A stretch of DNA of 39,890 nt from Lentisphaerota bacterium (GTDB taxonomy: Bacteria; Verrucomicrobiota; Lentisphaeria; Victivallales; Victivallaceae): contig SUVU01000007.1 of assembly GCA_015061865.1 (NCBI GenBank), forward strand, positions 1 to 39,890, written 5' to 3'. A model generated the notes under the pieces. The model was given only the letters and a program-made list of their open reading frames with translations, ran no database searches and was not told the DNA's origin. Positions 2,189 to 39,890 of this stretch are shown here, one piece after another (the first letter of the stretch is position 1; each line of letters begins with the position of its first letter). The translations under genes were made by a program, and so were the position numbers.

Positions 2189-4387
2189 TCACCGGTAGTA
2201 GTTCAGTTTCTTTTCGATCATCGCCATGCCGCCGGCGACGATAAAGTTGAATATGTAGTAAAATACCCCGGCAACCGCCAGCGGGAGCATGGTGGCGTGG
2301 GTGCTGGAAATATATTTGGCGATGGTAAACATTTCCAGTACCGACAGTGAAAATGCCAGCGAAGTATCTTTGACCAGCGTGATGACCTCATTGGTCATCG
2401 GCGGGACGATCCGTTTGACCACCTGCGGCAGAATGATCCGGAAAAAGGTCTGCTTTTCGCTGTAACCCAGCGCATACGCCGCTTCATACTGGCCCCGGGG
2501 GATCGAATTGATGCCCGCCCGGTAGATTTCAGCGAAATACGCCGCATAATTCAGCGCAAAACCGATGATTACTGCGGTGAAACTGTATTCAATGCCGCAG
2601 AATTCCAGATCGGACAGCTGGATATTGAACAGATAATAGGGGCAGAAAAACCACATCAGCAGCTGCAGCATCAGCGGCGTGCCGCGCATGATCGAGATGT
2701 AGACCCGGAAAATATTTCTGATCACGATATTGCCGGACATCCTGCCCAGTGCCACCAGCATCCCCAGCGGCAGAGCAAAAATCAAAGTCAGAATGAAAAT
2801 TTCCACCGAGATCAGCAGACCTTTGAGCAGGTCTTTGAGCATGATGCCCCAATTCATGGATTTTTTCACGGCATTATCGGTGGTGATCTTATTTTCGCTG
2901 TCGAAAACGAATTTGATATTGAATTCACGGTATTTGGCGGTGATCTCAGCCACGGTGCCGTCTTTCGCCATCTCGCCCAGTGTCAGCTGTACCTGATCTC
3001 TCAAAGCGGTGTTGCCGAGTTTGAAACCGATGCCGTATTTTTCCGAAATGACCGTTTCTGCAAGCATCCGGAAATCGCCTGAATTGATTTTGCTCTGTGC
3101 CACGCCGATATCCATGGCGACGGCATCGGCACCGCCGGCTTCCAGCTGCATGACAGCGTTATTGTAATCCGGGGCGACGATCAGTTTGGCGAGCGTTTTG
3201 CCGATGTCGGCACGGCTGCCGTCCTGCTGCAATGCTTTCTGTACCGGCGTATCAGTCTGTACGACGACCCGTTTGCCGGCGAGATCGGCAAGCTGTCGGA
3301 TCGGAGAATCGTTTTTGACCAGCACGACCTGCGAATTGTCCACATACGGGGCGCTCCAGGTGTATTTATCTTCTCTGCCGTTGATGGTAAAGCCGTTCCA
3401 GATGCAGTCGATCAGACCGCTGTTCAACTCGGTATCTTTGGCGTCCCAGTTGATCGGTTTGAGGACAAGTTTCCAATTATTGCGCCGGGCGACTTCGGCA
3501 GCAAGATCGAGGTCGAATCCGACATATTTGCCGTTTTCGATATAACCGTAGGGTTTGAAATTGGCGTCAAATCCGACGGTGAATTTTTTTTGCGGCTGAT
3601 TCCGGCTGTCAAGGATGAATTTGATGTTGAACTGCCGGTATTTCTCATTGATTTTCCGGACGGAGCCGTCGGCAGCCATTTCGATCAAAGTCTGCTGTAC
3701 CTGATCCCGCAGGGCGGTATTGCCGGTTTTGAAACCGATGCCGTACTTCTCGGAAATGACGATTTCGTCCAGGATCCGGTAGTTGCCGGAATCCATTTTG
3801 CTCTGTGCCACGCCGATATCCATGGCGACGGCATCGGCGCTGCCGGAATCCAGCTGCATGACGGCGTTATTGTAATCCGGGGCGACGATCAGTTTGGCGA
3901 GCGTTTTGCCGATGTCGGCACGTTTGCCGTCTTGCTGCAATGCTTTCTGTACCGGCGTATCGGTCTGCACGACGACCCGTTTGCCGGCAAGGTCGGCAAA
4001 TTTCCGGATGTCAGAATCTTTTTTGACCAGCACGACCTGCGAATTGTCCACATACGGGGCGCTCCAGGTGTATTTATCTTCCCTGCCGTTGATGGTAAAG
4101 CCGTTCCAGATGCAGTCGATCAGACCGCTTTGCAGTTCGGCATCTTTGGCATCCCAGTTGATCGGTTTGAGGACGAGTTCCCAATTATTGCGCCGGGCGA
4201 CTTCAGCGGCAAGGTCGAGGTCGAATCCGGTATATTTGCCGTTTTCCATGTAGCCGTAGGGTTTGAAATTGGCATCAAATCCGACGGTGAAAGTTTTCCG
4301 TTTGCTTGGAACGTCCTCTTTTTTGCACCCGAAAACTCCTGCCATCAGCACCGCCGCCAGCAAAATCCACAGTAATTTCCACTTCAT
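2189..4387 (-). CDS. ABC amino acid importer: two tandem substrate-binding domains fused to the permease
   Basis: A 732-residue fusion. Residues 1-20 are a hydrophobic signal followed by Cys21 (GVFGCKKED), a possible but non-ideal lipobox. Residues about 31-265 and 267-501 are two SBP_bac_3 domains, each with the ligand-binding Arg in TINGRED and the Asp in AVAMDIGVAQ. Residues about 515-732 are the HisM/GlnP-type permease with several membrane helices and the EAA loop (EAAYALGYSEKQTFFR). The architecture is like GlnP of Gram-positive GlnPQ importers. The two binding domains are nearly identical over their whole length, so the duplication is recent or kept alike by gene conversion. An ATG 12 bases upstream (4399) is possible, but AAAGG abuts it directly; from 4387 the spacing is 12. 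The substrate is probably a polar amino acid. Confidence 0.92.
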   Translation of the reverse strand: MKWKLLWILLAAVLMAGVFGCKKEDVPSKRKTFTVGFDANFKPYGYMENGKYTGFDLDLAAEVARRNNWELVLKPINWDAKDAELQSGLIDCIWNGFTINGREDKYTWSAPYVDNSQVVLVKKDSDIRKFADLAGKRVVVQTDTPVQKALQQDGKRADIGKTLAKLIVAPDYNNAVMQLDSGSADAVAMDIGVAQSKMDSGNYRILDEIVISEKYGIGFKTGNTALRDQVQQTLIEMAADGSVRKINEKYRQFNIKFILDSRNQPQKKFTVGFDANFKPYGYIENGKYVGFDLDLAAEVARRNNWKLVLKPINWDAKDTELNSGLIDCIWNGFTINGREDKYTWSAPYVDNSQVVLVKNDSPIRQLADLAGKRVVVQTDTPVQKALQQDGSRADIGKTLAKLIVAPDYNNAVMQLEAGGADAVAMDIGVAQSKINSGDFRMLAETVISEKYGIGFKLGNTALRDQVQLTLGEMAKDGTVAEITAKYREFNIKFVFDSENKITTDNAVKKSMNWGIMLKDLLKGLLISVEIFILTLIFALPLGMLVALGRMSGNIVIRNIFRVYISIMRGTPLMLQLLMWFFCPYYLFNIQLSDLEFCGIEYSFTAVIIGFALNYAAYFAEIYRAGINSIPRGQYEAAYALGYSEKQTFFRIILPQVVKRIVPPMTNEVITLVKDTSLAFSLSVLEMFTIAKYISSTHATMLPLAVAGVFYYIFNFIVAGGMAMIEKKLNYYR
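2883..4298. repeat. Tandem duplication, period 708 bp, encoding two substrate-binding domains
   Basis: Two direct copies, roughly 2883-3590 and 3591-4298, encode the two binding domains of the ABC fusion protein. Long stretches are identical at the DNA level with an exact 708-base offset; for example, the segment coding for VVVQTDTPVQKALQQDG occurs in both with few changes. The differences are concentrated near the ends of each domain. Boundaries are estimated from the protein alignment. Confidence 0.9.
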
Positions 4388-4468
4388 ATCCGGAAGCATC
4401 CTTTGATTAGATGAAATAATTATAGATGAAACTTACTTAATATGCCACTGCAAACGGTCAAATGCAAA

Positions 4469-5497: not shown

Positions 5498-6595
5498 TCA
5501 GCGGTTGGCAGCCATGCGTTTCTTTTCCTCGGCCTCCATCAGCGGCAGGAAGCGGGCTTTGTCACTGGCTTTCATGTACGCTTCCTCGGCGGTGATATTG
5601 CCGTTGTCCAGCTGTTCCTGGATCGAATTGTCCATCGCCTGCATGCCCCGGCCCGTACCGGCATCAATGATGGTGCGGATGTTGGAGATCTGTCCTTCAC
5701 GGATCGTGTTGGGCAGACCGTCCGCCCAGAGGAGAACTTCGTGAACCGCGACCCTGCCGCCGGAAACCGTGCGGCACAGCAGCTGGGAAACGATCCCCTG
5801 CAAACATTCAGCGAGCATGGTGCGGATCTGCGCCTGCTCATCCGCCGGAAATGCGTCGATGATACGGTCGACCGTCTGCGGAGCGTTGTTGGTGTGCAAA
5901 GTGGCAAACACCAGCATCCCCATGGAAGCACAGGTCAAACCCAGCCGCATGGTTTCGTTGTCACGCATTTCACCGATCAGCACGATATCCGGGTCGGAAC
6001 GCATCGCACTGCGCAGTGCCTGCGGAAACGAGGGACTGTGGATGCCGACCTCCCGGTGGACGATGGTGGAGAGTTTGTTCTGGTGGACGAACTCGATCGG
6101 GTCTTCGATAGTGATGATGTGCTTGCTGGTGTTTTCGTTGATATGGTTGATCATCGCCGCCAGCGTGGTGGATTTACCCGAACCGGTAGGGCCGGTGACC
6201 AGCACCAGACCGGATTTATAGCCGCAGATTTCTTTCAACACCTGGGGCAGACCGAGCTGATCCAGCGTGAGAATGGTGCTGGGGATCTGGCGCAGTACGC
6301 ACGCCATGCCGTGATAATTGTAGAAAAAGTTGCAGCGGAAACGTGCCAGACCGGGGATCTCGTGGGCGAAGTCCAGGTCGTGGGTTTGCAGAAACTGGTC
6401 CCAGCGTTTGGCAGGCAGGCAGATCTCCTGCATCAGCGCCGCCATGTATTCCGGGGTGAGAATGGTGTCATCCAGCGGCTTGATATTGCCGTGGAAGCGG
6501 GCTTTGGGCGGGAAATTTATCGAGAGGTGCAGGTCGGAGCCGCCATTGGCGAGCATTTGCCGCAGATAACCATTGATGACAGGTTCGTTTTCCAT
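5498..6595 (-). CDS. pilT: PilT-like type IV pilus retraction ATPase
   Basis: A 365-residue hexameric secretion ATPase that would retract type IV pili or a related pseudopilus. Walker A GPTGSGKST is at 135-143, the Asp box around IEDPIEF at 163-169, Walker B IVLIGEMRD at 204-212 and the His box SMGMLVFATLHTNNA at about 224-238. The PilT hallmark AIRNLI is replaced by SNIRTII before the C-terminal helix. The start has AAGGAT nine bases upstream. It lies 12 bases after a second PilT-family gene in the same operon, as pilT/pilU do in proteobacteria. No PilB or PilC gene is in the window. Prepilin-like proteins encoded elsewhere in the window are possible clients. Confidence 0.92.
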   Translation of the reverse strand: MENEPVINGYLRQMLANGGSDLHLSINFPPKARFHGNIKPLDDTILTPEYMAALMQEICLPAKRWDQFLQTHDLDFAHEIPGLARFRCNFFYNYHGMACVLRQIPSTILTLDQLGLPQVLKEICGYKSGLVLVTGPTGSGKSTTLAAMINHINENTSKHIITIEDPIEFVHQNKLSTIVHREVGIHSPSFPQALRSAMRSDPDIVLIGEMRDNETMRLGLTCASMGMLVFATLHTNNAPQTVDRIIDAFPADEQAQIRTMLAECLQGIVSQLLCRTVSGGRVAVHEVLLWADGLPNTIREGQISNIRTIIDAGTGRGMQAMDNSIQEQLDNGNITAEEAYMKASDKARFLPLMEAEEKKRMAANR

Positions 6596-6607
6596 GATCG
6601 GGTATCC

Positions 6608-8008
6608 TTATTTCTTTTTAGCTTCACGTTGAGCCCAGAGCGAATTGAGCTGGGCGATGATGGTCGGGTCGTGCATTTCTGCCAGTGCCGCATCTCTGGT
6701 GATCAAACCGAGGGAGAATTTCTCCAGCAGGCACTGGTCAAACGTACACATTCCGTTTTTGTTGGATGTGACCATTGTGGATTCCAACCGGAAAGTTTTG
6801 CCTTCACTGATGATATTGGCGACCGCCATGCTGTTGAGCATGATTTCGTAAATCAAGGTCAGACCGCCGAATCCGTCTGCGACCAGCTTCTGGCAGATCA
6901 CGCCGCGCATACTGCCGGCAGTCATCGCCCGGATCTGCGGCTGCTGGGAGGGCGGAAACACATCCAGCAGACGGTTCAGGGTATTGGAGGCGTTGCCGGT
7001 GTGCAGCGTGCCGATGACAAGGTGACCGGTTTCAGAAGCGGTGATGGCGTTTTCGATCGTTTCGAGGTCGTGCATTTCACCGATGACGATAATATCGGGG
7101 TCTTCACGCAATGCCGCTTTCAAAGCGGTGCGGTAACTGGCGGTGTGTTTGCCGATCTCACGCTGGGAGACCTGACAGTTTTTGGACAGCTGCATGATTT
7201 CGATGGGGTCTTCCACGGAAATAATGTGGTCGGTGCGTTTGTCATTGATAATATTTATCATCGCCGCCAGCGTGGTGGATTTACCCGAACCGATGGGACC
7301 GGTGACCAGCACCAGACCGTTGTGGTAGTCGAGCAGACGTTTGATATAGACGACATCTTTGGGCAGGAAACCGAGTTCCTCCAGCTGGCTGACGTGGTCG
7401 GCGATCAGCCGGTAACTGCCGGAGTAACCGCTTTTCTGCTCCATCAGACAGACCCGGAAACGGTCGTTGCCGATCTCCAGTGCCAGATTGAGATCCTGCT
7501 GTTCACGCAGCTGGGTGCGCCGATCTTCCGGGAGCAATGCGAAATTGAGTCTTTCGGCATCTTGGGCGGTGAGAACATAGGAGTCAATGCGTTCCACGTT
7601 GCGCAAACGGCGCACAAACGGCGGGGAACCGGCAGAAATATGCAGGTCACTGCACCCCAAACGCCGCAAACCGGAAAGCAGCATGATCATCCGCTGTCTG
7701 ACCTCTTCATCAGAAACTGTCGCCAAATCGCTGAAACCGGGGAGGTCTTCATAACTGTTGATCGAGGATATCTGCGCCTGCGTGCAGGCATAATCGACAA
7801 GCTGCTGGATCTGTTCGACAAACTGATCCTGCTCCTCCAGCGACATCGACCCGGCAAGCGTATCTATCACCGCTTCAGCGAATTCAGCCAGATCCGGAGT
7901 CTGGTTCAGCGACATCCACAACTGCGTGGCGTCATCATCGGTCATCAGACCGTTGTCTGCCAGCGCATAGGCAAACCATTGGATTTCAAGCGAAGCATCA
8001 GGAGACAT
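6608..8008 (-). CDS. PilT/PilU-family ATPase with an extra N-terminal domain
   Basis: A 466-residue protein. Residues about 118-466 match the PilT fold: SDLHISAGSPP near 120, Walker A GPIGSGKST at 237-245 (Ile replaces the usual Thr), the Asp box in ISVEDPIEI, Walker B IIVIGEMHD (His replaces the usual Arg) and the His box with GTLHTGNA. The first 115 residues are an acidic helical domain (many D, E, Q) absent from normal PilT. It is the first gene of a four-gene operon, preceded by AAAGGTG and a near-consensus promoter. Its paralogue follows immediately, so the two may form a PilT-PilU-like pair, with this copy being the diverged accessory motor. Confidence 0.88.
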   Translation of the reverse strand: MSPDASLEIQWFAYALADNGLMTDDDATQLWMSLNQTPDLAEFAEAVIDTLAGSMSLEEQDQFVEQIQQLVDYACTQAQISSINSYEDLPGFSDLATVSDEEVRQRMIMLLSGLRRLGCSDLHISAGSPPFVRRLRNVERIDSYVLTAQDAERLNFALLPEDRRTQLREQQDLNLALEIGNDRFRVCLMEQKSGYSGSYRLIADHVSQLEELGFLPKDVVYIKRLLDYHNGLVLVTGPIGSGKSTTLAAMINIINDKRTDHIISVEDPIEIMQLSKNCQVSQREIGKHTASYRTALKAALREDPDIIVIGEMHDLETIENAITASETGHLVIGTLHTGNASNTLNRLLDVFPPSQQPQIRAMTAGSMRGVICQKLVADGFGGLTLIYEIMLNSMAVANIISEGKTFRLESTMVTSNKNGMCTFDQCLLEKFSLGLITRDAALAEMHDPTIIAQLNSLWAQREAKKK

Positions 8009-28051: not shown

Positions 28052-28975
28052 ATGAGTGACATTTTCACAACTGCAGATATTCCGCTTTTCTTTGAAAGAG
28101 AAAGGGGGCGCAGGGGAAAGGGAAAAACCTCTTTTCCCGTGAAAAGAAGTTTTTCCTCTTGCCCCGCAAGCCATTTCACTTTAATAGAACTGCTGGTGGT
28201 TATTGCCATTATCGCGATTCTGGCTGGCATACTGCTGCCGACGCTGCAGCAGGCACGCTCCCGGGGCAGGGCGACCAGCTGTACGAATAATATGAAACAG
28301 TTGGGCTTGGGGATCAGCACTTACGCTTCAGAGAACGATTCTTATGTACTGCCGGTCATCACGGCTGATACGACGTATGGTGCTGTCAACAATCGCAACT
28401 GGTTTGAATATGAAGCTCCGATCCGCAAGATCTGTCAATCCGGCACTACGGCGGTGAAATGGGGCAGCGGCGAGGGCAATATCATCAACTGTCCGGAGCG
28501 GGATCCGGAGCGCAGAATGGTCGATCCGCTGGGAAATTTCAAATACAGCGAAAGCGGCTCTACCAAAGAGGGTGCTTATGATCCGCGCAGTGCCTGTTAC
28601 GGAATGATCAGCAATATCATGGGCGGCGGCGGTTATGATGCGAACGGGAAATTGAAAAATGCCAATACCAAATTTTACCGTTTGAGCAAAATACTCCGTC
28701 CTTCGGGGCTTTCCGGGTTTGTAGACAGCGACAATGTCCAGTTTTTGTCCAGTAAATACCGCAACGGCATCTGGAACGGGGAAAAGGGGGATAATATCTC
28801 TTTAAGGCACAGTAAAGCTGCAAATGTGTGTATGCTGGACGGTCATGTGGAGTCGATCCGGGACAGTTTGTTTCACTCCTCCGTGGCGGCAGACAAATAT
28901 TCGGGCGTTCACCGTTACTTTAACGTGCGCACGACTCCGGGCAGAAAATTGTATGAGCCGGAATACAACCGGTAA
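28052..28975 (+). CDS. Prepilin-like protein (DUF1559 type) 2, leader enlarged by a translated repeat
   Basis: A 307-residue protein. ATG 28052 is chosen because AGAGGG lies just upstream and the promoter is at 27959-27987. The leader is unusually long, about 42 residues: MSDIFTTAD, then a translated 78-nt repeat ([16 protein letters not shown] and onward), then CPASH directly before [20 protein letters not shown]. The rest is a soluble pseudopilin-like domain with the C-terminal block [20 protein letters not shown]. If a prepilin peptidase cuts before the Phe, the repeat-encoded part would be removed and the mature protein would be normal. The -1 residue is His. It is followed by another prepilin-like gene after 52 bases. 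Confidence 0.85.
28078..28155 (+). repeat. Translated palindromic repeat element, copy 1
   Basis: A 78-nt sequence that recurs at 39813-39890 with 69 of 78 bases identical by hand count and no gaps. Both copies are read in the same frame, giving LFFERE[RK]GR[RG]GKGK. The 3' half is a hairpin: 28122-28136 pairs with 28141-28155 at 14 of 15 positions around loop CCGT. Between copies, two stem pairs change together (A-T to C-G and C-G to T-A). A small extra hairpin, CTTGC/GCAAG, follows at about 28157-28169 in this copy. Confidence 0.85.
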
Positions 28976-34753: not shown

Positions 34754-34836
34754 AAATTTTCTCCATAATTCTATCCGGCAGTTAATCTAATCGCCACCGG
34801 AAGTATTTGCAAACTGATTTTTGCAGAAAAACTGGC

Positions 34837-34906
34837 AAAATGATCGAATTTTCATCTTTTTTGAGACAAAAATCATGTTGTTTATCCGTTTTTGGGATAT
34901 ATTATA
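34837..34906 (+). promoter_or_regulatory. AraC-type promoter block, copy A (before the GH106-like gene)
   Basis: A 70-base block repeated at 37987-38056 with about 53 of 70 bases identical and no gaps. It contains TTCATCTTTTTTGA (34851) and ATCATGTTGTTT (34872), direct repeats 21 bases apart, then TTGGGATATATTATA with the -10 region at 34898-34906. The -35 position is a poor match to consensus and is covered by the second repeat, as in activator-dependent promoters. Confidence 0.75.
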
Positions 34907-34933
34907 AATGTGAAAGGATATGGGGACTCAATG

Positions 34934-37900
34934 ATGAAAACGATGATGAAAAATTTTGCCGCCCCGGGGGCGGAATTTCGCGGCGCACCGTTCTGGGCGT
35001 GGAACTCCGGATTGGATCGGGATGAATTGCTCCGGCAGATACATATTTTCAAAGCAATGGGAATGGGCGGATTTTTTATGCACTCCCGGGTTGGTTTGAA
35101 TACCCCTTATCTGGGCAAAGATTGGTTTGACTGTGTCAGAAGTTGTATTGCCGAAGCGGAAAAACTGGGAATGCGGGCGTATTTGTACGATGAAGACCGC
35201 TGGCCGTCCGGCAGTGCCGGCGGTATTGTGACTGCTGATGACCGTTATAAAAGCCGTTGGTGCGCCGTGGAAATATATTCCGGCGTGCGGCAGGCGCAAA
35301 AAGCAGATAACAGCAATACGCTGGTTTGGTATTCCGCAGTGGTTTCCGGCAGTTTTGAGCAGAATACGTTGAGAATAAAGTCCCCCCGCCGTTTGACATC
35401 TCCGGCAGATTTCAAACCCGGGCGCGACCGTAAATTACTGCGCTTTGCACTGCAGTTGATGGATAACCATGAGTGGTACAATGGCGGAACTTATCTGGAC
35501 ACCCTGAATCCCGAGGCGGTACAGAAATTTATTGACGTGACCCACGAAGCGTATTTCCGGGAGTGTGGCGCCGAATTCGGCAAAACTGTGCCGGCGATAT
35601 TTTCCGATGAACCGATGTTTTTTTCACCGCGTTCTTTGTCTACGGTGATAATTCCGTGGACGGAGACGCTGCCGGAGAAATTTCAGGCGGAGTATCATGC
35701 TGATATTCTGGAACACCTGCCGGAAATATGTTTTACTTCCGTCTGTAAAAAATCGGTGTGGCGTTTACGCTACCTTAATCTGATCACCCGGATGTTCTGT
35801 CAGGCATTCGCCGGTACGATCAGCGATTGGTGCAGTAAACACGGTTTGCAGATGACCGGTCATGTGATGAGCGAAGACCGTCTGAATCAGGCCATGATCG
35901 TCGGTGCCGCCATGCGTTTTTATGAGTATATGCAGTTCCCTGGGATCGACGTATTGACGGAGTGCTGGCGGGTTTTCAATACTGCCAAGCAATGTTCATC
36001 TGTGGCGCATCAGTTCGGGCGCAGACAGCGGCTTTCAGAAACCTACGGCTGTACCGGGTGGGATTTTCCATTTGCCGGACACAAAGCCGTAGGAGATTGG
36101 CAATATGCGCTTGGCATCAATTTCCGCTGTCAGCATCTGGCGTGGTATTCCGCTGAAAGTGAAGCCAAACGCGATTATCCTGCCAGTATTTCTTATCAAT
36201 CGCCGTGGTATGAAAAATATCCGGTGGTCGAGGATTATTTTGCCCGTCTCGGTGCGGTGATGAGTGAGGGGGAGGAACTCTGCGAATTGCTGGTGATCCA
36301 TCCGATCGAGTCGGCATGGATGGCGGTTGATCCGGCGTGGCTGGGGAAACATTGTTTTGTAAAAGAGAACCGCCGTTTTGCCAAATTGACCGATACGCTG
36401 TTGGCGCAGAAACTGGATTTTGACTTTGGCGATGAGGAGATCATTGCCCGCCACGGCAGGATAGAGGCGGGCAAAATTGCCGTCAGGTGTGCCGCTTACC
36501 GTGCGGTGCTGATCCCGGAATTGGAGACCATCCGGGGGACGACACTGGAATTGCTCCGGGAGTTTGCCGAGCAGGGTGGAACAGTGGTTTATCTGAATTC
36601 GGCACCGCAATATCTGGATGGGGAACGTTCAAAAGTTCCGGAACAGATTTTTACCGGATTTATCCGTGCCACGCTTGCGGAAGCGGTCAAACTGCTGGGC
36701 GGCAGTATCCGCCGGGTCGGGGTGACTGACCGGGCAGGGCGGCAGATCGCACCGGTGCTTGCCCGGTTGGCAGACACCGGCAGTGCGTATACGCTTTTTC
36801 TCTGCAATTACGGTGCAAAATTCAACGCCGATACCATTTTGAATGATTGTCCGGTCAGGGAGAGAAAGTTGAAATATCCTTATGCCCGGATCACCCTGAC
36901 CGTTCCGTTGCGGGGGGAAGTGTATGAATTGCATCCGCTGGACGGCAGTATCAGCAGGGTCGAGTACAGTTATAAAGACGGTCAATACTGTTTTGAAAGT
37001 GCGTTTGGCGAGCTGGAGTCACATCTGTTTCTGATCACCGCAGAAAATCCGGGGACGGTTGCGGATAAAAAAAGTGCTTCTTTCCGGAAAGCGGTAAAAC
37101 TGCCCGCTGAAAACTGGGATTATCAACTGGATGATCCCAATGTCCTGATCCTGGATCATGCCGACGGTGTTGCTGACGGGGAAGTTATCGGTAAAAACTG
37201 TTATATTCTGGAATTGGATAACACTTTGCGCCGGATGCTGGGGGGGATGCCGCGCGGCAGGACGATGTGCCAGCCCTGGACAAAACTGCATCAGGAGGTT
37301 GAAAAGAAACTGGATCTGACTTTGACTTATAGTTTTACTGTTGCAAACGTGCCGGAAACAGATTGCCTGCTGGCATTGGAGCATCCGGAATTTTACCGGA
37401 TCAAATTGAATGGTCAAATTCTGGATACCACCGTAAAAAGATGGTGGTTTGACCGGAGTTGTCAATGTATCGCCATTCCGGCTGAACTCCTGCTCGCCGG
37501 CTCCAATACGCTGGTACTTTATTCAGAGTACCACGAAAATCTGCCGGGACTTGAAGCGATGTTTCTGCTGGGCGATTTCGGCGTGACTGCTGATGCCGTG
37601 ACCGAGCTGCCCCGGAAATTGACCACGGGCGATTGGTGTGCGCAGGGATTGCCGTACTATGCCGGAAATGTGACATATTCCCGTGAGGTGGAGATTCCGG
37701 GCGGCGGCGCAGTTCTGGAATTCGCCGACTGGAGCGGCGTCCTGCTGGGCGTGCGGATCGCTGACGGTGCAGAGACTCTCCTGCCGTGGCCGCCGTACCG
37801 TTTGGAATTGCCCGCAGGGAAGTTCCGGCTGTATATCACGGTTTACGGCAGCCGCCGCAATGCGTTGGGGCCGTTTTTCGTCGAACGTCAGGCATGGGTC

Positions 37901-37993
37901 GGGCCGGATCAATTCCGGATGAAACGGCAAAATAAACGTCAGCTGATCCCCGGCGGGTTACTGGGTGAACCGGTGATAAAAATAATAAAATGA
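34934..37993 (+). CDS. GH106-like glycoside hydrolase (alpha-L-rhamnosidase type)
   Basis: A 1019-residue protein. The N-terminal TIM barrel begins APFWAWNSGLDRDELLRQI and continues GMGGFFMHSRVGLNTPYL and YLYDEDRWPSGSAGG, blocks typical of GH106 and related proteins. IFSDEPMFFSP and a later GHVMSEDRL carry candidate catalytic acids. A Rossmann-like domain (about 480-600) and C-terminal jelly rolls (about 800-1000, WAQG-type sugar-binding folds with EYHENLPGLEAMFLLGDFG) follow. There is no signal peptide. The frame is open up to a TTG at 34892, but that would place the start inside the -10 box; ATG 34934 has GGGGA seven bases upstream (ATG 34931 is also possible). It would release rhamnose from oligosaccharides in the cytoplasm. 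Confidence 0.85.
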   Translation: MKTMMKNFAAPGAEFRGAPFWAWNSGLDRDELLRQIHIFKAMGMGGFFMHSRVGLNTPYLGKDWFDCVRSCIAEAEKLGMRAYLYDEDRWPSGSAGGIVTADDRYKSRWCAVEIYSGVRQAQKADNSNTLVWYSAVVSGSFEQNTLRIKSPRRLTSPADFKPGRDRKLLRFALQLMDNHEWYNGGTYLDTLNPEAVQKFIDVTHEAYFRECGAEFGKTVPAIFSDEPMFFSPRSLSTVIIPWTETLPEKFQAEYHADILEHLPEICFTSVCKKSVWRLRYLNLITRMFCQAFAGTISDWCSKHGLQMTGHVMSEDRLNQAMIVGAAMRFYEYMQFPGIDVLTECWRVFNTAKQCSSVAHQFGRRQRLSETYGCTGWDFPFAGHKAVGDWQYALGINFRCQHLAWYSAESEAKRDYPASISYQSPWYEKYPVVEDYFARLGAVMSEGEELCELLVIHPIESAWMAVDPAWLGKHCFVKENRRFAKLTDTLLAQKLDFDFGDEEIIARHGRIEAGKIAVRCAAYRAVLIPELETIRGTTLELLREFAEQGGTVVYLNSAPQYLDGERSKVPEQIFTGFIRATLAEAVKLLGGSIRRVGVTDRAGRQIAPVLARLADTGSAYTLFLCNYGAKFNADTILNDCPVRERKLKYPYARITLTVPLRGEVYELHPLDGSISRVEYSYKDGQYCFESAFGELESHLFLITAENPGTVADKKSASFRKAVKLPAENWDYQLDDPNVLILDHADGVADGEVIGKNCYILELDNTLRRMLGGMPRGRTMCQPWTKLHQEVEKKLDLTLTYSFTVANVPETDCLLALEHPEFYRIKLNGQILDTTVKRWWFDRSCQCIAIPAELLLAGSNTLVLYSEYHENLPGLEAMFLLGDFGVTADAVTELPRKLTTGDWCAQGLPYYAGNVTYSREVEIPGGGAVLEFADWSGVLLGVRIADGAETLLPWPPYRLELPAGKFRLYITVYGSRRNALGPFFVERQAWVGPDQFRMKRQNKRQLIPGGLLGEPVIKIIK

Positions 37994-38056
37994 ATGTATT
38001 ATCATGTTTTTTGACGGAAAAATCATGTTTTTATGGATTTATTGGGCTATATTATA
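37987..38056 (+). promoter_or_regulatory. AraC-type promoter block, copy B (before the GH78-like gene)
   Basis: The same arrangement as at 34837-34906: ATCATGTTTTTTGA (38001) and ATCATGTTTTTA (38022), 21 bases apart, then TTGGGCTATATTATA with the -10 region at 38048-38056. Distances between all elements are identical in the two copies. The block begins inside the last codons of the GH106-like gene. Confidence 0.75.
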
Positions 38057-38090
38057 GTCGTATACCATGAATTTGTACAAGGGTTTTACT

Positions 38091-39650
38091 ATGGATTTCA
38101 ATGTGACAGGATTTGATTTGACTGCCTTGCCGCAGTTGCGTCAGATGTGGGCGGCGCAGGCGGAAAGTTTGCGCCATGAATTGGAGCATCAGGACGCTTA
38201 TCCCAAATATATCGTCAAAACTGTGGCGGATGCAGCGGCGTATCAGGGCGTCAGAGTGGAGAATGTCGGCAGTGCCGGTGAATTGAAAAATATGACGTTC
38301 CCATCTCATAGTTCGGTGATACTGGATTTCGGGGAGCATCATGTGGGATATTTTGAATTCACCATGCGCACCGCCACGGGGTATTGTGATTCCCCGGTAT
38401 CGTTGCGGCTGATGATGGCGGAACTGCCCTATGAATTGGAGTACACCAGCGATAAATTCACCGGCAAACTCAGTCAGGGGTGGATCCAGGAGGAGTATAT
38501 CAAAATCGACGTACTGCCCGGCACCATCCGGCTGCCGCGCCGTTATGCCTGCCGCTATTTGCGTATTGACATTATCGCCACACCGAATCAACTGATTTTC
38601 GATCAGATTTGTTTCGATACGGTTGCCGCCAGAAATTCCCTGCCGCAGGCTCCTGCCGGAGTGAGCGTATTGGATCAGGAACTTTATACTGCGGCATGCC
38701 GGACTTTGCGGGACTGTATGCAGACATGCTTTGAGGACGGCCCCAAACGTGACCGCCGTTTGTGGCTGGGGGACTTGTATTTGCAAGCCAAAAGCAATGC
38801 GGTCACCTACCGGGACTATCTGCTGGTGGAGCGTTCGATCTGTCTGCTTGCTGCCAATACCAATGATGCGGGGATGATCGCCGTATGTGCGTTTGAACAT
38901 CCCGGCATGAGGACGAATTGTTTTTATCCGGACTACATGATGCTGATGCCGGCATTGTTGCTGGATCACCTTGACGAATATGACCGCCGGGAGTTTGCTG
39001 CCGGATTCTATCCGCTGGCGATTCAGCAGCTCCGGGTGTTCAGGGGGATGATCGCCGGGGAAAACTGCACGTTGACCCGCTATCCGCAGTACCGCTATTT
39101 TATCGACCACTGTCCGCAGCTGGAGGTCGAAACGGCGGAGATCTGCGTGTATATTTTTGCACTGCGCAAAGCAGCGGAACTGGCACGCAAACTCGGATTT
39201 GACGGCGATATTGCCGCATTGACCGCCGAAGCGGATCGGTGGGAGCAGAATATCCGCAAATATGCGTTCGATCACGACAGCGGTCTGCTGGTTTCCGGTG
39301 CGGCGCGTCAGGTGTCGCAGGCGTCGCAGATCTGGGGCATCCTTTCCGGAGTGCTTTCGATAGACGAGGGCAAAGCGGCATTGACCAAAGTCAAAACTCT
39401 GCCCGGTGCGGTGCGTTCCCGCAATCCGTATTTGCTCACTTATCTGCTGGAAGTGTACGATATTTGCGGTATGAGTGAAGATTTGGATGAATTGCTGCAC
39501 AGTTATTGGGGCGGCATGTTGAAACTGGGGGCGGACACGTTTTGGGAGATGTTCGATCCGGATGATCTTTATCAGGAATTGTACGGTGATGCGTATTTAT
39601 TGAGCGCCTGCCATGCGTGGAGTTGTGCGCCGAGTTTGTATATCCGGTGA
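38091..39650 (+). CDS. GH78-like alpha-L-rhamnosidase
   Basis: A 519-residue inverting glycosidase with a short N-terminal beta-sandwich (about 40-190) and an (alpha/alpha)6 barrel. The GH78 active-site block is CFEDGPKRDRRLWLGD with E215, D216 and D221; the likely base Glu486 is in ADTFWEMFDP, and ACHAWSCAPSLYI closes the barrel as in known members. It is shorter than secreted GH78 enzymes because the extra beta domains are absent, and it has no signal peptide. The frame is open from 38067, but that ATG lies only 10 bases after the -10 box; ATG 38091 has AAGGG seven bases upstream. It shares its promoter block with the GH106-like gene, so the two act in the same rhamnose-polymer pathway. Confidence 0.92.
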   Translation: MDFNVTGFDLTALPQLRQMWAAQAESLRHELEHQDAYPKYIVKTVADAAAYQGVRVENVGSAGELKNMTFPSHSSVILDFGEHHVGYFEFTMRTATGYCDSPVSLRLMMAELPYELEYTSDKFTGKLSQGWIQEEYIKIDVLPGTIRLPRRYACRYLRIDIIATPNQLIFDQICFDTVAARNSLPQAPAGVSVLDQELYTAACRTLRDCMQTCFEDGPKRDRRLWLGDLYLQAKSNAVTYRDYLLVERSICLLAANTNDAGMIAVCAFEHPGMRTNCFYPDYMMLMPALLLDHLDEYDRREFAAGFYPLAIQQLRVFRGMIAGENCTLTRYPQYRYFIDHCPQLEVETAEICVYIFALRKAAELARKLGFDGDIAALTAEADRWEQNIRKYAFDHDSGLLVSGAARQVSQASQIWGILSGVLSIDEGKAALTKVKTLPGAVRSRNPYLLTYLLEVYDICGMSEDLDELLHSYWGGMLKLGADTFWEMFDPDDLYQELYGDAYLLSACHAWSCAPSLYIR

Positions 39651-39678: not shown

Positions 39679-39890
39679 ATGAATGTCAAAATATTATCGC
39701 GCCCGTATGGAGATAGCCGCAGGGCTGGCTGTTTCGCTTTCACGCTGATTGAATTATTGGTGGGCAAAACTTGTCAAATATGTGTTTTGCTGTGGTGTTT
39801 TTTCAAAAAAAGTATTTCGCTTTTCTTTGAAAGAGAAAAGGGGCGCGGGGGAAAGGGAAAACTCTCTTTTCACGGGAAAAGAAAGTTTTC
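39679..39890 (+). CDS. Prepilin-like protein 4, interrupted by a translated repeat and cut by the window end
   Basis: The first 70 codons of a gene with GGGAGGA nine bases before ATG 39679, 28 bases after the GH78-like stop. The leader MNVKILSRPYGDSRRAGCFA is followed by FTLIELLV, but the normal VIAIIAIL helix does not follow. Instead the frame reads GKTCQICVLLWCFFKKSIS and enters the repeat element (LFFEREKGRGGKGK and onward), still open at the last base. The break falls after TTATTGGTGG, within the most conserved DNA of the family. It may regain a second FTLIELLVV beyond the window, in which case the first is part of an extended leader; otherwise this is a disrupted gene. Confidence 0.75.
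   Translation, partial: MNVKILSRPYGDSRRAGCFAFTLIELLVGKTCQICVLLWCFFKKSISLFFEREKGRGGKGKLSFHGKRKF
39813..39890 (+). repeat. Translated palindromic repeat element, copy 2
   Basis: The counterpart of 28078-28155, in the same orientation relative to the gene and the same reading frame, but inserted after FTLIELLV rather than before it. The hairpin arms 39857-39871 and 39876-39890 pair at 14 of 15 positions around loop ACGG. The single mismatch (C-A) is at the same stem position as in copy 1. The element may continue past the window. Confidence 0.85.

Follow-up and report, generated by a model that had tools for sequence, protein, structure and literature searches.

Prepilin genes of rumen and gut Lentisphaeria very probably carry a non-autonomous, palindromic mobile element that inserts in frame and regenerates its own target. 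We came upon it at the end of a contig of 39,890 nucleotides (hereafter the window), where a prepilin gene runs into the element. Insertion is precise and has occurred repeatedly, and the reading frame is preserved. The target is regenerated and used again, the older copy of the target decays while the newer copy is conserved, and the inserted peptide is nearly neutral. The orthologous site of a relative is empty.

The mechanism that we propose is the following. The insert of the window would be a copy of a non-autonomous element, short (about 140-330 bp) and hairpin-bearing, which would enter prepilin genes at a single point, between the GT and the third base of the Val codon (FTLIELL-GT/N, the slash marking the point). 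The right end of the element would supply the DNA for FTLIELL-GT, with a total length that is a multiple of three and with no in-frame stop, and the resulting host gene would consist of the old motif, the insert peptide, the regenerated motif and the pilin. Translation would presumably proceed from the start codon of the host gene through the insert. The prepilin peptidase would then cut before the second Phe, and the insert would be lost with the leader, leaving the mature pilin unchanged. Mobilisation would probably be provided in trans by a recombinase or transposase. With rather less assurance, we lean towards a wider view, in which such elements represent a kind of mobile DNA whose removal takes place in the protein. 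The DNA would enter the prepilin signal sequence alone and regenerate the cleavage motif as it does so, leaving the prepilin peptidase of the host to discard its peptide. It could for that reason occupy most members of a large family of genes, time after time and also in tandem, with hardly any cost.

The window is a complete contig (G000:C111) of a draft genome of 165 contigs; the assembly holds no sequence past position 39890, and the contig end falls within the repeat. A sequence-only reading had described a prepilin gene that passes from FTLIELLV into repeat-bearing sequence with the frame still open, and this was confirmed at 39739-39890: the frame is open from FTLIELLV via GKTCQICVLLWCFFKKSISLFFEREKGRGGKGKLSFHGKRKF up to the final base of the window, and the stretch that follows FTLIELLV is found again in the same genome. 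Because it recurs there at 94-100% identity, and also inside the window at 28078-28155, it is not a chance sequence. The same reading had called the gene broken, which was not borne out, as the break is that of the contig, inside the repeat. Full-length siblings measure 147 nt from the V codon up to the second F; by comparison, the insert of the window lacks about 19 nt and its own FTLIELL, and other copies of the insert family resume FTLIELLVV 19 nt past the point at which the window ends. The third prepilin gene has its own motif at 28174-28197, directly after a remnant of the element. The annotated start of this gene could easily be wrong. The coordinates of these features are collected in Table 1.

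Table 1. Features of the window that bear on the element in prepilin genes
Feature	Position	Strand	Basis or remark
N-terminal codons of the fourth prepilin gene (MNVKILSRPYGDSRRAGCFA)	39679-39738	+	ATG at 39679; compared with the start of the syntenic G010 prepilin
Left (pre-existing) FTLIELLV copy	39739-39762	+	GT at 39760-39761, insertion point after it; junction from the entropy of 32 sibling inserts
Insert (putative element), cut by the contig end	39762-39890	+	Comparison with full-length siblings
Possible left-end hairpin (GCAAAAC...GTTTTGC)	39764-39790	+	Read from the sequence
Right-proximal palindrome GAAAACTCTCTTTTC-acg-GGAAAAGAAAGTTTTC	39857-39890	+	Read from the sequence; seen in the DNA fold of sibling L004, z -3.8
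GH78 alpha-L-rhamnosidase-like gene, synteny anchor upstream of the interrupted prepilin	38067-39650	+	G010 orthologue 76% identical
Third prepilin gene, with a decayed element copy in the leader, then FTLIELLVV; left FTLIELLV lost	28052-28975	+	Matches to PF07596, TIGR02532 and TIGR04294
Remnant of the element body in the third prepilin gene	28078-28173	+	28078-28155 versus 39813-39890, 88% identity

Some other features of the window were observed along the way. A 79-nt repeat (73% identical) occurs at 34828-34906 and 37978-38056, just upstream of the genes at 34892-37993 and 38067-39650 (the rhamnosidase gene), and is possibly a shared promoter or operator. Two adjacent genes for PilT-family ATPases, which belong to the type IV pilus machinery, lie at 5498-8008 on the minus strand. 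Also on the minus strand, at 2189-4399, a single reading frame combines two tandem substrate-binding-like domains (DNA repeat D1, 80% identical) with an ABC-permease-like part.

Two further contigs of the same genome carry the gene beyond the window. C151 overlaps the window end exactly over 120 bp and C13 exactly over 93 bp; both keep the frame of the window and have, no more than ten codons on, a second prepilin motif that leads into a prepilin body. The sequence-only reading had predicted just such an in-frame motif within about 20 codons, and the motif is present in both contigs as well as in every sibling insert of this genome that has both ends (L002, L004, L005, L007, L013, L015, L016 and L020). 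Either contig could be the true neighbour of the window, with the motif restored in frame in both cases, and comparison with the orthologue in G010 weakly favours C151. A search for orthologues with the mature part of L075 returned a paralogue only, and the empty site came from synteny instead. In G010, a genus relative without SKTC-type inserts, the orthologue of the upstream rhamnosidase gene is followed by an uninterrupted prepilin. As judged from gene order, this locus is the empty site; the few leader residues that precede FTLIELLV differ.

The arrangement is common in this class of bacteria. FTLIELLV, an insert of 39-102 aa and a second prepilin motif occur in succession more than 100 times in Lentisphaeria genomes. 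The left end (GTRAGYAAAACTTGTCAAA) was counted 11 times in the genome of the window, about 50 times in G011, 27 times in G014 and 10 times in G002, and it practically always follows directly on the LL codons and the GT of the V codon. In scans of the whole collection it was confined to Lentisphaeria except for two chance matches in other reading contexts, the single IMG/VR match and one in Moraxellaceae. Related left ends (VSAACK, VTTAQQN, VSTVISS and VNTSISS) share the insertion point, and a scan of the order found double motifs in additional genera of the same taxonomic family as well as in a second one. A body of 210 bp from G011 matches 43 places over most or all of its length (41 in G011 and 2 in G013), the full-length matches in G011 sit at the FTLIELLV of prepilin genes, and an insert tail is carried by 60 of the 82 prepilin motifs listed for G011 (about two thirds, by inspection). 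Relatives of the genome of the window are Lentisphaeria/Lentisphaerae MAGs, several of them from roe deer cecum and sheep colon, and every carrier genome named here is a draft MAG.

A few occurrences depart from this arrangement. Two loci in the genome of the window (L018 and L019) have the palindromic body of the element without an adjacent prepilin motif, and the module may spread independently. At L252 and in G127 (C11, C27, C57 and C169), prepilin genes have inserts at a later point than the main site (LLVVIA/QFLCDFA... or another sequence). One of these later inserts has stops, and other target points and real disruptions may exist.

Preservation of the frame was assessed on inserts that were located via the DNA of the left end and a frame-blind search for the next prepilin motif. 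In the 85 inserts with both ends, length is divisible by three without exception, over 15 distinct lengths of 117-306 bp. In-frame stops are absent from 84 of them, compared with stops in 45 and 81 of the 85 in the other two frames; the rare sibling with a stop is L058. A frame-blind scan for double motifs across 137 genomes gave a spacing divisible by 3 in 99 of 104 cases (p = 7e-41), and the five exceptions are without the usual left ends. At another locus (L129), the second motif has been lost and the insert joins the prepilin leader to a more downstream portion of the gene.

The peptide encoded by the inserts appears to be under little constraint. Within insert families, pN/pS ranges from 0.55 to 0.84, and in the larger families polymorphism is spread almost equally over the three codon positions (48, 54 and 53 sites in the 210-bp family). 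Stops were nonetheless observed 0 times against about 28 expected (summed over five length classes). Because the inserts are near-neutral yet stop-free, they are most readily seen as translated, with a peptide sequence of little importance, and this pattern of substitution fits a leader stretch that would be discarded. The host genes are prepilins, with matches to TIGR02532, PF07963, PF07596 and TIGR04294, an N-terminal methylation motif and a C-terminus of the DUF1559 or H-X9-DG kind, and in profile searches it is the second, regenerated motif that the curated prepilin models score. Prepilin peptidase is known to cleave prepilins in general before the Phe of the motif. We infer that it removes the longer leader, insert included; the first FTLIELLV might also be cleaved.

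The junctions indicate how the inserts arrived. Among 496 pairs of copies sampled from G011, the inserts have a median identity of 94%, but the 200 bp upstream are similar in 5 pairs only, most of which involve inserts that the insert listing gives as nested. Spread by gene duplication was ruled out by these unrelated flanks. In an alignment of 32 copies, the bases upstream have an entropy of about 1.9 bits each. The value is low within the insert and the right FTLIELL and climbs abruptly, to 1.4 bits, once the third base of the right Val is reached; it stays raised from there on. On this alignment, both junctions are evidently sharp and lie directly after CTNGT, which is present at both; the right boundary can be placed only to within a few bases, inside the last Leu codon.

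The right-hand FTLIELL is DNA of the element. Some inserts are nested (L069, L074, L091, L092 and L134), the second insert lying inside the FTLIELLV that another insert supplied, and regenerated targets are therefore re-used. One locus, 98.9% identical between G011 and G014 over 380 bp, holds a different insert body in each. The left FTLIELL is changed in 15 of 84 copies and the right one in 0 of 84 (p = 3e-5), as counted with a right-motif search that tolerated one mismatch and that strongly decayed right copies would escape. The sequence-only reading had left it between an element that inserts at the conserved DNA and one that recombines through it; the sharp junctions and unrelated flanks support insertion and give no support to recombination. 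Its further suggestion, that the element brings its own FTLIELLVV and so regenerates the target, is upheld by the nested inserts, by the common regenerated DNA and by the fact that only the first copy decays.

Homologous recombination or gene conversion between prepilin paralogues, which would copy the leader insert without transposition, nevertheless has to be weighed. The target DNA is common to dozens of paralogues, no dedicated enzyme tracks the element, and there is a weak match between left and right at the third base of the last Leu in the 144-147 family (15 of 18 versus 10.6 expected, p = 0.003; not significant in the largest family). However, conversion through the common motif is disfavoured because both junctions are sharp, where ordinary conversion would give variable tracts. 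Moreover, the left FTLIELL has a native appearance as far as the junction, the codons straight after the right GT are diverse and the flanks are unrelated, and we regard this explanation as unlikely. Much the same weight is given to the idea that the extension is beneficial to the host, with a long leader or an mRNA hairpin regulating the synthesis or sorting of pilins. A benefit of this kind, from the leader, regulation or the hairpin, is conceivable in view of the stable hairpins and of inserts that stay open and are so frequent among the motifs listed for G011. It is made doubtful by the almost neutral peptide, by bodies that differ wholly between families, even at one locus, and by close relatives without SKTC-type inserts.

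That the gene at 39679 is simply disrupted, a pseudogene, is very improbable: the window does stop short of a second motif, and rare siblings lack it (L129) or contain a stop (L058), but the motif is restored in frame in both overlapping contigs and 84 of 85 siblings are open. Skipping of the insert at the RNA or translation level, by bypass or in the manner of an intron, would keep it out of the protein altogether, and the near-direct repeats of the motif that flank it do resemble those of bypassing elements. Yet a skipped sequence would have no reason to keep its length in multiples of three or to avoid stops, and we think such skipping extremely unlikely. Several contigs, the window included, end in the repeat, as they might if the assembly had falsely joined repeats onto prepilin starts; we give next to no credence to such an artefact, since many copies are internal to long contigs (several in the 124-kb G011:C40 alone, for example) and come from MAGs of different projects and hosts. 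A mobile element that regenerates its target is the reading that we retain.

With regard to mobilisation, folding of three representatives of the element gave stable hairpins (z -6.9, -3.8 and -2.8). For the G011 family the prediction includes a left-end stem, which is absent from the minimum-energy folds of the other two families tested. In one family, the right-end stem shows a compensatory exchange of A-T to G-C (37 versus 12-13 copies), read in the right hairpin as CAATCAGCG/CGCTGATTG versus CGATCAGCG/CGCTGATCG. By analogy, the hairpins may indicate that a REP/IS200-type enzyme, one that recognises hairpins, acts in trans. When Y1_Tnp, reverse transcriptase and serine recombinase were compared with the copy number of the element among 34 genus members, none of them tracked it. 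G011, the richest carrier, has no reverse transcriptase, no serine recombinase and no full Y1, only two short Y1 fragments; no Y1 match was obtained in the carriers G002, G013 and G032, a result limited by MAG incompleteness. The Y1 gene in the genome of the window (L211) was rejected as the mobiliser, as it looks like an ordinary IS200-type element with no relation to the insert ends. Long terminal inverted repeats were not seen in the element and no autonomous copy was found, nor was the element observed in an excised or circular state. One body searched in each of the phage and plasmid collections gave no match, and in Rfam the only resemblance was to hairpins, below threshold and mostly among miRNA models.

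Several known systems share parts of this anatomy. REP elements with RAYT (IS200/IS605-like) transposases are short, non-autonomous, hairpin-bearing repeats that are mostly extragenic, and insertion of the IS200/IS605 type, downstream of a fixed sequence of which the right end of the element holds a second copy, would produce the anatomy described here. The Lentisphaeria element resembles them in its subterminal hairpins; however, no REP tag was identified in it, and Y1 transposases do not follow it among relatives. In tRNA-targeting integrative elements, which carry an integrase, attP supplies the sequence that restores the end of the gene, and the element is absent from the gene product. The likeness lies in an element-borne copy of the target that repairs the interrupted gene, whereas here there is no integrase or cargo, the target is protein-coding and the product gains a leader piece of 39-102 aa. 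As with inteins, an in-frame parasite has its peptide (here probably) removed from the mature host protein, but there is no self-splicing domain, and removal would fall to the prepilin peptidase of the host and affect the N-terminus only.

Of the known kinds of element, the Rickettsia palindromic element (RPE) comes closest. As described in the parts of two papers on which we draw, RPEs are palindromic repeats of about 150 bp that lie in frame within protein-coding genes and are translated with the host protein (PMC10969869, PMC3733652). The Lentisphaeria element, compared by description, is likewise palindromic and in frame in open reading frames. RPEs are described from many unrelated genes, in contrast to an element found at one point of one gene family; the Lentisphaeria element also regenerates the motif that it interrupts, nests and sits in a removable leader, and a regenerated target does not figure in those parts of the RPE descriptions. 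Its anatomy can be regarded, by analogy, as in-frame insertion like that of RPEs combined with target regeneration like that of tRNA-targeting elements, plus a removable leader. In a limited library, literature on the pilins of Lentisphaerae and Victivallis, on FTLIELLV and on in-frame palindromic elements did not describe the element, and only work on RPE, MITE and REP was relevant.

For Lentisphaeria, the element accounts for fragmented assemblies and possibly for mis-called prepilin starts, and it points to a site-specific mobilisation system. In-frame selfish DNA that proteins tolerate is known from Rickettsia. If the proposed mechanism is true, a single rule, namely to insert only in a signal sequence and to bring the signal along, would explain the tolerance, the copy number and the nesting of the element.
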